Part shown: positions 7,680 to 18,944 of the stretch, one piece after another
Position numbering within the stretch: the stretch's first letter is position 1
How the letters are laid out: the number at the start of each line of letters is the position of its first letter
Assembly (NCBI RefSeq): GCF_002848135.1
Contig: NZ_PKGB01000001.1
Span: 1-64,000, forward strand
Reading direction: 5' to 3'
Source of the DNA: Hydrogenovibrio sp. SC-1
Lineage (GTDB): Bacteria > Pseudomonadota > Gammaproteobacteria > Thiomicrospirales > Thiomicrospiraceae
DNA: 64,000 nt
Notes under the pieces: generated by a model
Told to the model about the DNA's origin: nothing
Databases searched by the model: none
The model's input: only the letters and a program-made list of their open reading frames with translations
Position numbers and translations under genes: made by a program

Positions 7680-8810
7680 TTAAGAAGTCAGCAATTTTTT
7701 ATGGGTCTGAATCGACATTAAAATGCCAAAACTAATCATTAATGTGACCATTGAGCTGCCACCGTAACTAATCAGAGGTAAGGGTAAGCCGACAACGGGT
7801 AGAATGCCGCTTACCATGCCAATGTTAACAAAGACATAAACAAATAAAGTCATGACTAGGCTGGCGGCAGTCAGCCTAGCAAAATTATCTTGAGCTTGTG
7901 AGGCAATGTAGAGCCCGCGAGCAATGATTAATAGGTAAAGCGTCAATAATGCGGCAACGCCGATGAGCCCAAGCTCTTCAGCAAATACGGCAAAAATAAA
8001 GTCGGTGGTGCTTTCCGGTAAAAATTCTAAATGCGCTTGAGTACTGCCCATTAACCCTTTTCCTTCCAGTCCGCCTGAACCGATGGCAATTTTGGATTGT
8101 ATGATATGGTAACCCGTCCCCAAAGGGTCTGACTCTGGATTGAGGAAGGTTAGAACCCGTTGTTTTTGATAGTCATACATATAGAAGTTCCAAACAATGG
8201 GTAAACTGGCCGCGACGATTGCAATTGCAGAGGCAATCCATCGCCAAGATAGGCCTGCAAAAAATAGTACAAACAATCCACTCATGGCAATCAAAATCGA
8301 GGTGCCCAGGTCGGGTTGGATAATAATGAGGCCGGCCGTTAAACCGACAAGACCGATACCAATCAGCATTTTTTTACGAGGCGGCGGGAAGGTGTCATGG
8401 GCAAATAACCATGCCACCATCATTGGGAGCGCGAGTTTCATAATTTCAGACGGTTGGAATCGAACGATACCTAAATCCAGCCACCGTTGTGCTCCTTTGC
8501 CCATTTCTCCAAATAGAATGACGCTGATTAACATCAGGGTTCCTATTAGAAAAATCCAAGGGGTGTAAACACGCATGATATTAGGGGGGATTTGAGCAAA
8601 AAATAGCATTAGGGCAAAAGCAAATCCAACACGGGTTAAGTGGCGGATCAAAACATTTAAATCACTACCAGAGGCACTATAGACAATTAAAGATCCGGTG
8701 ATAATGAGCAAGAAAATGCCCAATAAAAGCCAGCTATCCAGGTGCATTGAGAACCAGATCCCTTTCTTTTGGCGATAAACATTTTCTCGTTGTGGCAAAT
8801 CAATCTTCAT
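7680..8810 (-). CDS. rodA: Rod-shape SEDS peptidoglycan glycosyltransferase RodA
   Basis: Multi-pass SEDS-family membrane protein (376 aa) that polymerises lipid II glycan strands with PBP2 during side-wall growth. Family signatures are QPDLGTS in the middle, and PESTTDFIFAVFAEELG and GLPLPLISYGGSSM near the end. About ten hydrophobic segments alternate with short loops. The start overlaps the mrdA stop by 11 bases, so the two partners are translationally coupled. Confidence 0.96.
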   Translation of the reverse strand: MKIDLPQRENVYRQKKGIWFSMHLDSWLLLGIFLLIITGSLIVYSASGSDLNVLIRHLTRVGFAFALMLFFAQIPPNIMRVYTPWIFLIGTLMLISVILFGEMGKGAQRWLDLGIVRFQPSEIMKLALPMMVAWLFAHDTFPPPRKKMLIGIGLVGLTAGLIIIQPDLGTSILIAMSGLFVLFFAGLSWRWIASAIAIVAASLPIVWNFYMYDYQKQRVLTFLNPESDPLGTGYHIIQSKIAIGSGGLEGKGLMGSTQAHLEFLPESTTDFIFAVFAEELGLIGVAALLTLYLLIIARGLYIASQAQDNFARLTAASLVMTLFVYVFVNIGMVSGILPVVGLPLPLISYGGSSMVTLMISFGILMSIQTHKKLLTS

Positions 8811-10617
8811 TGGAGAGTTCTTCTAAATAGTATTTAGCAATCTTAATCGCAACGGGTGCCGCTTTGGTCGTTGAGTTTTCAATAATGACACTGATGGCGA
8901 TTTTAGGCTTGTCGACTGGTGCAAAACCAATAAATAACGAGTGATCTCTTAGGTTTTTGGTGATTTCATCTTCATTGTATTCGCCTTCATTCAAACTGAA
9001 AACTTGTGCCGTTCCCGTTTTGCCTGCCATCTTAAAGGGTAATCCTCTTGCATAAGCATGCGCGGTTCCATGAATCGAGTGAACCGTGTCTTCCATGGCT
9101 TGAATGACTCTCTCCCAGTTCTGGGTTTTCTCAATTGCGATTTTTTTGATGACGAAGGTGGGCGCACTTTTGAGGAGTCTTGGCTGGATAATTTCCCCTC
9201 GGTTTGCCAAGATAGAGGTGGCTTTTGCCAATTGTAATGGGGTTGCTAAAAAGAAGCCTTGACCAATGCTGGTGATAATCGTTTCACCATTGTACCAATC
9301 ATCGTTCTTGACGTTTCTTTTCCAGCTGCGAGAGGGTAGAATGCCTGTGGATTCATTTTGTAAATCCACTTTCGTTATATGTCCAAAACCGAAGGGGGTA
9401 AGCGAACTGTGGATCAGATCGATCCCCATATCTAAACTCAATTTATAGAAGTAGGTATCGCAGGATTCAACAATGGCTTTGCGCATGTCGACCAGGCCGT
9501 GACCACGCCTTTTCCAGTCGCGATAACGGTGATCCTGATATTCTAAAAAACCGGGATCATGGATTTCAGTATTGGGCGAAATAATGTCGTTTTCTATTGC
9601 TGCAAGGGCGATAAATGGTTTGACGGTTGATCCGGGTGGGTATTGGCCATTGATAACCCGATTAATGAGCGGGCGTTTAGGGTTGTTGAGTAATGCTTGG
9701 TAATTTTTTTGACTAATACCATCGACAAATAAATTGGGATCATAGGCCGGTGAACTCACAAACGCCAAAATTTCTCCGGTTTCAGGTTCAGTAACCACCA
9801 CTGCGGCCTTTTTTCCATCCAGTAAGGTTTCGATATAGCGTTGTAAGCGAATATCCAATGTTAATTGAATATCTTTGCCCGGTGTGGCTGGAATGGTTTC
9901 CAGTTTACGAATAACTCTGCCACGGGCATTGGTTTCAATCTGTTGGATTCCTGGCTGTCCATGTAGCAAGGGTTCATAGTATTTTTCAATTCCGAGCTTA
10001 CCAATGACATCCGTTCCTGCATAGCTTGATTCTTCCAATTGCTCGTATTCGCTTTGGTTGATTTTGCCAACATAGCCTAAGACATGTGCTGCACTGTCTT
10101 TAAAAGGATAGGTTCGCTTCAGCTTGGCAACCAGTGTCATTCCGGGGAATTGATAGCTATGGGCAGCAAAGCGAGCGGCTTCTTGCTCAGATAGCGTGTA
10201 AGGCAAATAGAGTTGGCGATAGCGACTGGAGGCATTTAAGCGGTCATAGAATTTTGATAACCTTTCTTCGCTCAGGTTGGGGAGCAGTGTTTGTAAGTCG
10301 ATAAAGCTTTTATTTAAGTTTTCCATTTTGTCTTTAGAAAACTTAAGGGTAAATATAGGCTGGTTGTCAGCTAACAGCGCATGATTCCGGTCATAAATGC
10401 GGCCTCTAACCGGAGGTAGAGGTTCGACTGAAATGCGATTCCCTTCAGCCATAGATTGGTAATGATTGTACCCAATCCATTGTAAGTAGGTCATTCGGCC
10501 CAGAAGGATTAATAATAATAAAATACAGAAGGCTAAAGCAAAATATATTCGGCTTCTAAATAATTGTTTTTGAAAGTATATTTCACCTTCTGTTTGGTAT
10601 CGGTGTTTGTTCTTCAT
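8800..10617 (-). CDS. mrdA: Penicillin-binding protein 2 (elongation transpeptidase)
   Basis: Class B PBP of the elongasome, cross-linking new side-wall peptidoglycan. Order: short cytoplasmic N-terminus, one membrane helix (about residues 25-48), pedestal/dimerisation region, and a transpeptidase domain with active-site serine in PPGSTVKPF, the ESCDTYFYKL motif and KTG in GKTGTAQVF. 605 aa, normal for PBP2. Lies between mreD (3-base gap) and rodA (overlap), a complete rod complex operon. Confidence 0.96.
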   Translation of the reverse strand: MKNKHRYQTEGEIYFQKQLFRSRIYFALAFCILLLLILLGRMTYLQWIGYNHYQSMAEGNRISVEPLPPVRGRIYDRNHALLADNQPIFTLKFSKDKMENLNKSFIDLQTLLPNLSEERLSKFYDRLNASSRYRQLYLPYTLSEQEAARFAAHSYQFPGMTLVAKLKRTYPFKDSAAHVLGYVGKINQSEYEQLEESSYAGTDVIGKLGIEKYYEPLLHGQPGIQQIETNARGRVIRKLETIPATPGKDIQLTLDIRLQRYIETLLDGKKAAVVVTEPETGEILAFVSSPAYDPNLFVDGISQKNYQALLNNPKRPLINRVINGQYPPGSTVKPFIALAAIENDIISPNTEIHDPGFLEYQDHRYRDWKRRGHGLVDMRKAIVESCDTYFYKLSLDMGIDLIHSSLTPFGFGHITKVDLQNESTGILPSRSWKRNVKNDDWYNGETIITSIGQGFFLATPLQLAKATSILANRGEIIQPRLLKSAPTFVIKKIAIEKTQNWERVIQAMEDTVHSIHGTAHAYARGLPFKMAGKTGTAQVFSLNEGEYNEDEITKNLRDHSLFIGFAPVDKPKIAISVIIENSTTKAAPVAIKIAKYYLEELSNED

Positions 10618-10620
10618 GAA

Positions 10621-11124
10621 TTAGTTGAAAACAGTTTTATGCGTTAAACGGTTCAGTATGAGGGTGAGCAGTGGCCAAATTAAGGTTGCAATAACGGGTT
10701 CAAGCCAATAATAGTAGGGCGCATTGCCAAACAGTTTAGGCGCAAAAATAAACCAACTCATGATTTGGAAGACTAGTATGTAGCCCCCAATGATAATTGA
10801 CTGTTGCCAAAGCGGGTAGCTTTTAAAGCGCAGTCGAGAACGCAACATGAGAAATGTCGTTGTTAAAAAAATCAGGCTATGGGATCCTAAAGGAGTGTTT
10901 AAGGCGGTATCAAAAGCTAACCCGAGAATGAAGGCCGAAAATAAATGGCTTTTATAAAGGATTTGAGTCGTCCAAAAAAAAAGTGTCAGCAGCGTTAGTG
11001 AAGGCATAAATTGAATATCAAAGCTGAGTACCATCATATTGTCGATGACAATGGCCGTCAAATAGCTCAAAAAAAATAGCCACTTAATATCATTGATTTG
11101 AAGTGAAAATACCTTTTCAGTCAT
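10621..11124 (-). CDS. mreD: Rod-shape-determining membrane protein MreD
   Basis: Small (167 aa) polytopic inner-membrane protein, about five to six hydrophobic segments, of the MreD family. It bridges MreC and the RodA/PBP2 synthase in side-wall elongation. Sequence conservation in this family is low, so the call rests on hydropathy, length, the FILGLAFDTALNTPLGSHSL block and position between mreC and mrdA. Its start overlaps the mreC stop by 8 bases. Confidence 0.92.
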   Translation of the reverse strand: MTEKVFSLQINDIKWLFFLSYLTAIVIDNMMVLSFDIQFMPSLTLLTLFFWTTQILYKSHLFSAFILGLAFDTALNTPLGSHSLIFLTTTFLMLRSRLRFKSYPLWQQSIIIGGYILVFQIMSWFIFAPKLFGNAPYYYWLEPVIATLIWPLLTLILNRLTHKTVFN

Positions 11125-11953
11125 GTTCTGCTTCCTGTCTAGGGGAGAGGATGAGAACCTTTTGTGAGCGAGTTAGGTCCGCAATGGGTTCGGCACTAAT
11201 TTTATAATAAGGTTCCCCGCTTAAAGATTTGACATTTGAAATGGTTGCCACAGGCCTTCCTTCGGGAAAAATTTCACCCAGGCCTGAGGTTTCTAAAATA
11301 TCGCCAACTTTGATTGAGCTAGAAGACGGAATAAAGAGTAACGAAAGTTGCTCATGGCCAATACCATTCAGAATGCCTCGTTGACCGGTTCGCTGTATTC
11401 GGACGGGAACTTGTATTTCAGGGTCCGTGATGAGCTGAACACGGCACGAGGAAGGTGTTAGGGATGTAATTTGGCCAATCAAGCCTTTAGCATCTATCAC
11501 GGTTTGGTTAAGCTGAATGTTGTCCAGAGCACCTTTGTTTAAAATGACATACTGGGCAAAAGGGGTCTGGCTATAGGCGATTACGGATGCGATTTGAACA
11601 TCCGTTGATTTAAATTGACTAGCGGTTCCCAGTAGTCTATTTAACCGTTCTACCTCTAGCTGCAGCTTTTTCATTTGTTGTTGTTGCGCTTTTAGTAATA
11701 GGTTTTCAGTCTTTAGGCGATGATTTTCGGCACTGAGTTGGTTTGAGTGGGTATAGTCCTGTTGAATCCAGTTATACAGATCTAAAGGCAGAGCTGCGAC
11801 TCTCTCAACTGGCTCTATGGTTGCGGTTAGTAGGTTTCGGAAATTAGACAGGGCATTGGTATAATGATCTGACACCATTAATGCGATGCTGAGAATAAAG
11901 AACAGTAAGAAGTAGCTGCCTTCTTTCTGGGGAGAGGGAGTCGAGAAGTTAAT
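11117..11953 (-). CDS. mreC: Rod-shape-determining protein MreC, probable AUU start
   Basis: Periplasmic elongasome scaffold, single membrane helix then coiled coil (about residues 60-100) then beta-barrel domains (VIAYSQTPFAQYVILNKGA onward). The first ATG (11878) falls inside the membrane helix and would delete most of it. The frame stays open upstream and encodes the missing helix (SYFLLFFILSIALMV). A stop lies just upstream and there is no ATG, GTG or TTG in between. The best start is ATT at 11953 (fwd AAT 11951-11953), preceded by AGGGGG five bases upstream. This gives 278 aa. Homology of the extension is clear; the exact initiation codon is inference. Confidence 0.85.
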   Translation of the reverse strand: MNFSTPSPQKEGSYFLLFFILSIALMVSDHYTNALSNFRNLLTATIEPVERVAALPLDLYNWIQQDYTHSNQLSAENHRLKTENLLLKAQQQQMKKLQLEVERLNRLLGTASQFKSTDVQIASVIAYSQTPFAQYVILNKGALDNIQLNQTVIDAKGLIGQITSLTPSSCRVQLITDPEIQVPVRIQRTGQRGILNGIGHEQLSLLFIPSSSSIKVGDILETSGLGEIFPEGRPVATISNVKSLSGEPYYKISAEPIADLTRSQKVLILSPRQEAEHD

Positions 11954-12012
11954 AGCGACCCCCTGCTTTTAAGGTTATGAATACATTTAGATTTTGTGCC
12001 ATTACGGTCATT

Positions 12013-13358
<1,346 letters not shown>

Positions 13359-18389: not shown

Positions 18390-18944
18390 ATCGCAGTTAG
18401 AAGAGGTCGTGGAAGACCACAGCAACCAGAAGTCCCAAAGGATAATATTAACGGAAATATCTCTGCCAAAGAGGTTCGCTTAATTGATGCAGAAGGTGAG
18501 CAAAGAGGGGTTGTTTCAATTGAAGAAGCCCTTGAAGTTGCTAAGGAAGCTGAGCTGGATTTAGTTGAAATTTCTGCAAAATCAAATCCCCCTGTTTGTC
18601 GTGTGATGGATTATGGTAAGTTTGTTTACCAGCAACAAAAGAAAAAGCACGAAGCGAAGAAAAAACAAAAACAGGTTCAGGTAAAAGAAGTTAAATTTCG
18701 CCCCGGTACTGAACAAGGTGATTATGACGTTAAGATGCGGAATTTAATGAAGTTTCTTGATAATGGCGATAGAGTTAAGGTCACTATCTGGTTCAGAGGG
18801 CGTGAGATTACCCATAAAGAGTTGGGAATGCGCATGCTTGAACGAGTCCGTGATGATATTAAAGAAGTCGCTACGGTTGAACAGATGCCTAAGATGGAAG
18901 GACGCCAATTACAAATGATGGTGGCGCCAACCAAAAAACAATAG
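18390..18944 (+). CDS. infC: Translation initiation factor IF-3, AUC start
   Basis: Binds the 30S subunit and controls start-codon selection and ribosome recycling. The first ATG in frame (18603) would remove the whole N-terminal domain. Upstream the frame is open and encodes it ([39 protein letters not shown]). No ATG, GTG or TTG is available there. ATC at 18390 follows AGGAG (18377-18381) by 8 bases and gives 184 aa, matching E. coli IF-3. Rare AUU/AUC starts of infC are known to underlie autoregulation, since IF-3 itself rejects non-canonical starts. It lies 26 bases after thrS. Confidence 0.95.

Follow-up and report, generated by a model that had tools for sequence, protein, structure and literature searches.

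infC, which encodes initiation factor IF3, is the textbook gene with an AUU or AUC start codon, a start tied to autoregulation by IF3. Few bacterial genes are known to have AUU, AUC or AUA as start codon; pcnB of E. coli, with an AUU start, is one other than infC. Belinky et al. report one AUG to AUU switch among 61,358 reconstructed AUG starts, which shows that such starts are rare (PMC5622118). In a reconstituted system, fMet initiation on AUU/CAU drops with rising IF3 (PMC10158994), and in Streptomyces, where sigR has a GTC start, IF3 is described as a repressor of this gene and SigR is up in infC fidelity mutants (PMC5472188).

The start that we assign by comparing genomes to mreC, an essential gene of bacterial cell shape, resembles that of infC and appears as ATT, ATC or ATA (together ATH below) in a form common to the family of Hydrogenovibrio sp. 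SC-1, a sampled Pseudomonas-like genus and many related families. Full-text searches of the open literature listed no paper with an earlier report of a non-canonical mreC start, which is no proof that none exists.

The mreC start in Hydrogenovibrio

The window, the whole stretch of 64,000 nt that was analysed, carries the gene order mreB-mreC-mreD followed by mrdA on its minus strand, which is the context expected for MreC. mreB (12013..13059) starts with ATG and ends 59 nt ahead of the mreC ATT; mreD (10621..11124), also with an ATG start, overlaps the 3′-end of mreC; and mrdA, encoding PBP2 (8800..10617; TIGR03423, 738.7 bits), lies downstream in the same direction. Counted from the ATT at 11951..11953 on the minus strand, mreC (11117..11953) encodes 278 aa. 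An earlier note on this sequence had claimed that this start gives a normal MreC, and the product indeed passes the MreC equivalog test (TIGR00219, 169.5 bits against a cut-off of 92.75) and scores 143.1 bits with the core domain PF04085.

Read from the in-frame stop TAA at 11971-11969 (11969..11971, minus strand), the codons ahead of the membrane helix run AAG CAG GGG GTC GCT ATT AAC and onward, YFLLFFILSIALMV, and the frame past the stop translates as K Q G V A I N F S T P S P Q K E G S Y F L L F F I L S I A L M V. From the TAA to the helix, no ATG, GTG or TTG occurs in this frame on the minus strand of the window. The ATT is the sole start-like codon there, at the homologous start position, and the earliest ATG of the frame, at 11878, stands at the helix end. 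The earlier note was thus right that the frame supplying the helix lies upstream of the first ATG and that the stretch up to the next stop holds no canonical start. It had also placed AGGGGG five bases ahead of the ATT, and this Shine-Dalgarno (SD) sequence is found at 11964-11959 (11959..11964, minus strand), at normal spacing. Its predicted duplex with the anti-SD has an energy of −10.1 kcal/mol; of 666 ATH codons lying in frame inside the same set of genes, 0.3% pair at least as strongly. The starts of mreB (−5.9), mreD (−4.3) and infC (−7.4), all in this window, have weaker duplexes. infC (18390..18944, plus strand), with an ATC start after CAGGAG, serves as a positive control within the window; it lies about 6.4 kb from mreC, and in several members of the genus the two genes are some 7–26 kb apart.

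Taken with the comparisons below, we regard it as very probable that mreC is initiated at the AUU at 11953 and that this start is under selection. Translation would presumably proceed by fMet-tRNA pairing with the first two bases only, and the strong SD together with the A right after the AUU would prop up the weak start.

Distribution of the start codon

mreC was found in all 11 genomes of the genus and in 60 of 62 genomes of the family, which is the whole order in the collection searched. The family count rests on 59 of the 62 genomes, as two (G033, G036) were without a match and the gene was broken in a third (G034); in this draft genome (locus L064), mreC is apparently split into two overlapping frames. 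At the homologous position, 55 of the 59 usable rows have ATC (29) or ATT (26), and in the remaining four, which make up a single genus (g2), an ATG is close by. Fifty of the 55 ATH rows contain no canonical codon from the in-frame stop to the ATH codon, whereas five also have an in-frame canonical codon nearby; in seven rows of the family there is room for one codon only between stop and ATH codon. ATC is found, for example, in Thiomicrospira sp. WB1 and Hydrogenovibrio halophilus DSM 15072, and ATT in the MAG CG07_land_8_20_14_0_80_44_28. Alignment of relatives was a check named beforehand in the earlier note, and its claim of an AUU start is strongly supported by these 55 rows, by the controls described below and by alignment with the first residue of E. 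coli MreC.

A class-wide search matched mreC in 338 of 370 genomes. Outside the family, the start could be placed in 154 of 155 fetched loci from 128 families (L176, without an acceptable match, is uncounted); 21 loci that tblastn had missed were placed with an HMM built on the N-terminal part, and one of the searches gave matches in 80 of 80 genomes, of which 70 were fetched. We scored as ATH only those loci with an ATH codon and no canonical codon between codons −30 and +2. By this rule, 76 of the 154 loci are ATH only, 58 have a canonical codon without ATH, 18 have both and 2 have neither, and at least one ATH-only locus occurs in 59 of the 128 families. The first 85 loci were best matches and hence biased (52 ATH only, 27 canonical, 6 both, by hand count); a second set of 69, in which each family not yet sampled had one locus, was split by hand count into 24 with ATH only, 31 canonical, 12 with both and 2 with neither. 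The genomes are related, and p-values given here are consequently nominal.

The 76 ATH-only codons are ATC (33), ATT (28) and ATA (15). ATA is over-used at this position compared with internal Ile codons (15/76 against 83/829, p = 0.011), a weak line of support. ATA is the mreC start in some lineages (L303, L074, L076, L133, L137 and others), many of which seldom use it for Ile inside genes.

In a Pseudomonas-like genus, all 25 genomes have ATH at the mreC start (ATC 23, ATT 1, ATA 1), and 23 of the 25 lack an in-frame canonical codon ahead of it. MreC of this genus differs at 11 of 176 residues, counted by eye, from PDB chain 6zlv, which we take to be P. aeruginosa MreC on the basis of PMC8137920. 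Chain 7eft_A, presumably E. coli MreC (PMC8804602), aligns with its residue 1 at the ATC of the Pseudomonas-like protein, and at the same offset its Met1 falls on the ATT of the window (query 21 = chain 16). In the P. aeruginosa numbering of PMC8137920, the transmembrane region lies inside the first 14 residues and the construct spans 36-330. Judged from the sequence of relatives, this numbering would fit a start within the helix, where the first GTG after the relatives' ATC is found. The N-terminus of MreC is probably misannotated in many genomes.

In other classes of the phylum, a canonical codon stands ahead of the helix in the 12 readable of 14 mreC loci (L274 was misread and L282 unclear, and both are outside the 12). 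Several of these loci have TTG with a good SD; in one class, mreC of L268, L269, L271 and L279 apparently starts with TTG, likewise a weak codon preceded by a strong SD. That the ATH start extends well past the present genome was not apparent to the earlier note.

Initiation signals, selection and alternative readings

The neighbouring genes, read by an approach similar to that used for mreC, have ordinary starts. mreB has ATG in all 94 loci that include its start (of 114 loci examined, 15 did not include it, 3 were not aligned and 2 had no match). For mreD, 90 loci gave a match and 24 did not, and a canonical codon stands at the start in 89 of the 90. infC has ATC with a GGAG-type SD in all 30 family loci fetched, from 62 genomes matched; an in-frame TTG lies upstream of this ATC in 9 of the 30.

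An exact SD word of at least 4 nt is found 4–9 nt upstream of 54 of the 55 family ATH starts; of 740 ATH codons that lie in frame inside the same genes, 102 have one. The one family row with an exact-word score of 0 appears on reading to be the window's own AGGGGG, which is good by duplex energy only. Outside the family, an SD is present at 61 of 76 ATH-only starts but at 21 of 58 canonical starts (Fisher p = 3e-7), and among the 18 loci with both codon types it is placed for the ATH codon in 12 but for the canonical codon in 1. Median duplex energies are −7.3 kcal/mol for ATH starts of the family, −6.8 for those outside it, −3.1 for canonical starts and −0.6 for internal codons. E. coli mreC (L255:2892), with ATG and a duplex of −3.0 kcal/mol, has almost no SD. 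The base at +4 is A in 93% of ATH starts in the family and 96% outside it, compared with 20 of 58 canonical starts; an A here may pair with U33 of the initiator tRNA. Of 25 family rows with serine at codon 2, 24 encode it by AGY, whereas AGY accounts for 47% of serines in the rest of the genes (p = 3e-7, uncorrected for kinship).

Downstream of the ATH codon, differences at codon positions 1, 2 and 3 are 0.41/0.23/0.65 (24 codons, 49 family rows, pairwise); over codons −20 to −9 ahead of it, they are flat (0.73/0.73/0.74). The former is the signature of a translated stretch, which would begin at the ATH codon. It is hard to reconcile with a start at the ATG or GTG at 11878/11875, where a gene caller restricted to ATG, GTG and TTG would place it as the first canonical start in frame: the 24 codons past ATH would then go untranslated, and the product would be an MreC without the helix that is kept in all aligned relatives. 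We hold such a start to be highly improbable. Just as implausible is that translation enters mreC by a programmed frameshift from an upstream canonical start in another frame, or by mreB running into mreC. The window does have a 20-codon ORF in another frame that ends at TATTAA over the mreC start, and such ORFs occur in the family at 28 of 55 loci and outside it at 55 of 76; however, 27 of 55 and 21 of 76, respectively, have none in either frame, and the frame varies where one is present. As for mreB, its stop lies 11–224 nt upstream in 54 family loci, and the mreB-mreC distances are spread across the three frames (25/29/31). A sequencing or assembly error masking an ATG, which the earlier note had named as a finding that would overturn its reading, can be set aside as a negligible prospect: the genome is in 41 contigs, but no evidence for an error was found, and independent genomes, single-contig ones included, carry ATT or ATC at that position. 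On the evidence against each, we reject error, frameshift, mreB read-through and the downstream start.

The alternative with more to recommend it leaves the start at ATH but makes the weak codon a compensated relic, in which a strong SD and the A at +4 restore ordinary translation, and IF3 and dosage are irrelevant. The stronger SD at ATH than at canonical starts could merely equalise output, and the type of start (ATH or canonical) has switched at least 3 times, 9 by parsimony, on a rough tree of MreB with poor resolution, in which 43 of the 105 inner branches are left open. A pure relic should nevertheless revert, as a single T/C to G change at the third base would yield ATG. On the same tree (54 family rows), this base has undergone at least 11 changes between T and C and none to G or A, no ATG is found in the 55 family members with ATH, and fourfold sites in these genes are 22% G; genus g2, on the other hand, does have ATG. 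We therefore think the relic account rather unlikely and favor an AUU start maintained by selection.

MreC supply and comparison with known non-canonical starts

Comparison among genomes thus shows the place of the mreC start, its broad conservation, its strong SD and the lack of ATG in 55 family members, and suggests that cells deliberately make MreC from an inefficient, factor-controlled start. IF3 would discriminate against the mreC AUU as it does at infC, so that less MreC than MreB would be made from their common operon, and MreC synthesis would rise as IF3 activity falls. We judge the start to be probably IF3-sensitive. By analogy with infC and with Streptomyces sigR (PMC5472188), it is reasonable to infer that the level of MreC would follow IF3 activity.

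The purpose of such a start may be to fix how much MreC is made, since a build-up of this protein would switch the PBP2/RodA wall synthase; we see about even chances that dosage is what the weak codon serves. A dosage role is made plausible by the proposal in PMC8137920 that accumulation of MreC past a threshold could turn wall synthesis on, and by ribosome profiling cited there, in which E. coli MreC is made at about twice the level of PBP2 or MreD. The observed pairing of weak codons with strong SDs, and of strong codons with weak ones, is what a fixed output would predict. The weak start is dispensable, given the ATG in 4 family members and the canonical starts in 58 of 154 outgroup loci. 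More tentatively, and with the odds somewhat against it, mreC could, across a large part of the class, be a second conserved gene under IF3 control, with IF3 setting the supply of MreC and so coupling the state of initiation to cell elongation; ATH with a strong SD and ATG with a weak SD would then be two evolutionary solutions for a set MreC level, the first alone responsive to IF3. An ATH start kept over many families in a morphogenesis gene offers a natural test of the role of IF3 discrimination outside infC.

The mreC start resembles that of infC in its ATH codon, strong SD, similar spacing and retention in relatives (infC ATC 30/30). infC, however, feeds back on itself, whereas MreC is a cell-wall protein without a known link to initiation, and the +4 base is G in infC and A in mreC. 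pcnB of E. coli shares with mreC a non-canonical AUU start outside infC. The sigR case (PMC5472188) differs in having been demonstrated by experiment, where that of mreC is known from sequence comparison, and in its codons and breadth (GTC/GTT in one genus of 34 genomes, compared with ATT/ATC/ATA in many families); both have a lineage-conserved non-canonical start with a strong ribosome binding site in an operon, and the sigR start, as suggested here for that of mreC, would adjust the amount of product relative to a partner protein. mreC of E. coli lies in the same operon and has its first residue at the same position as mreC of the window, but begins with ATG behind a weak SD.
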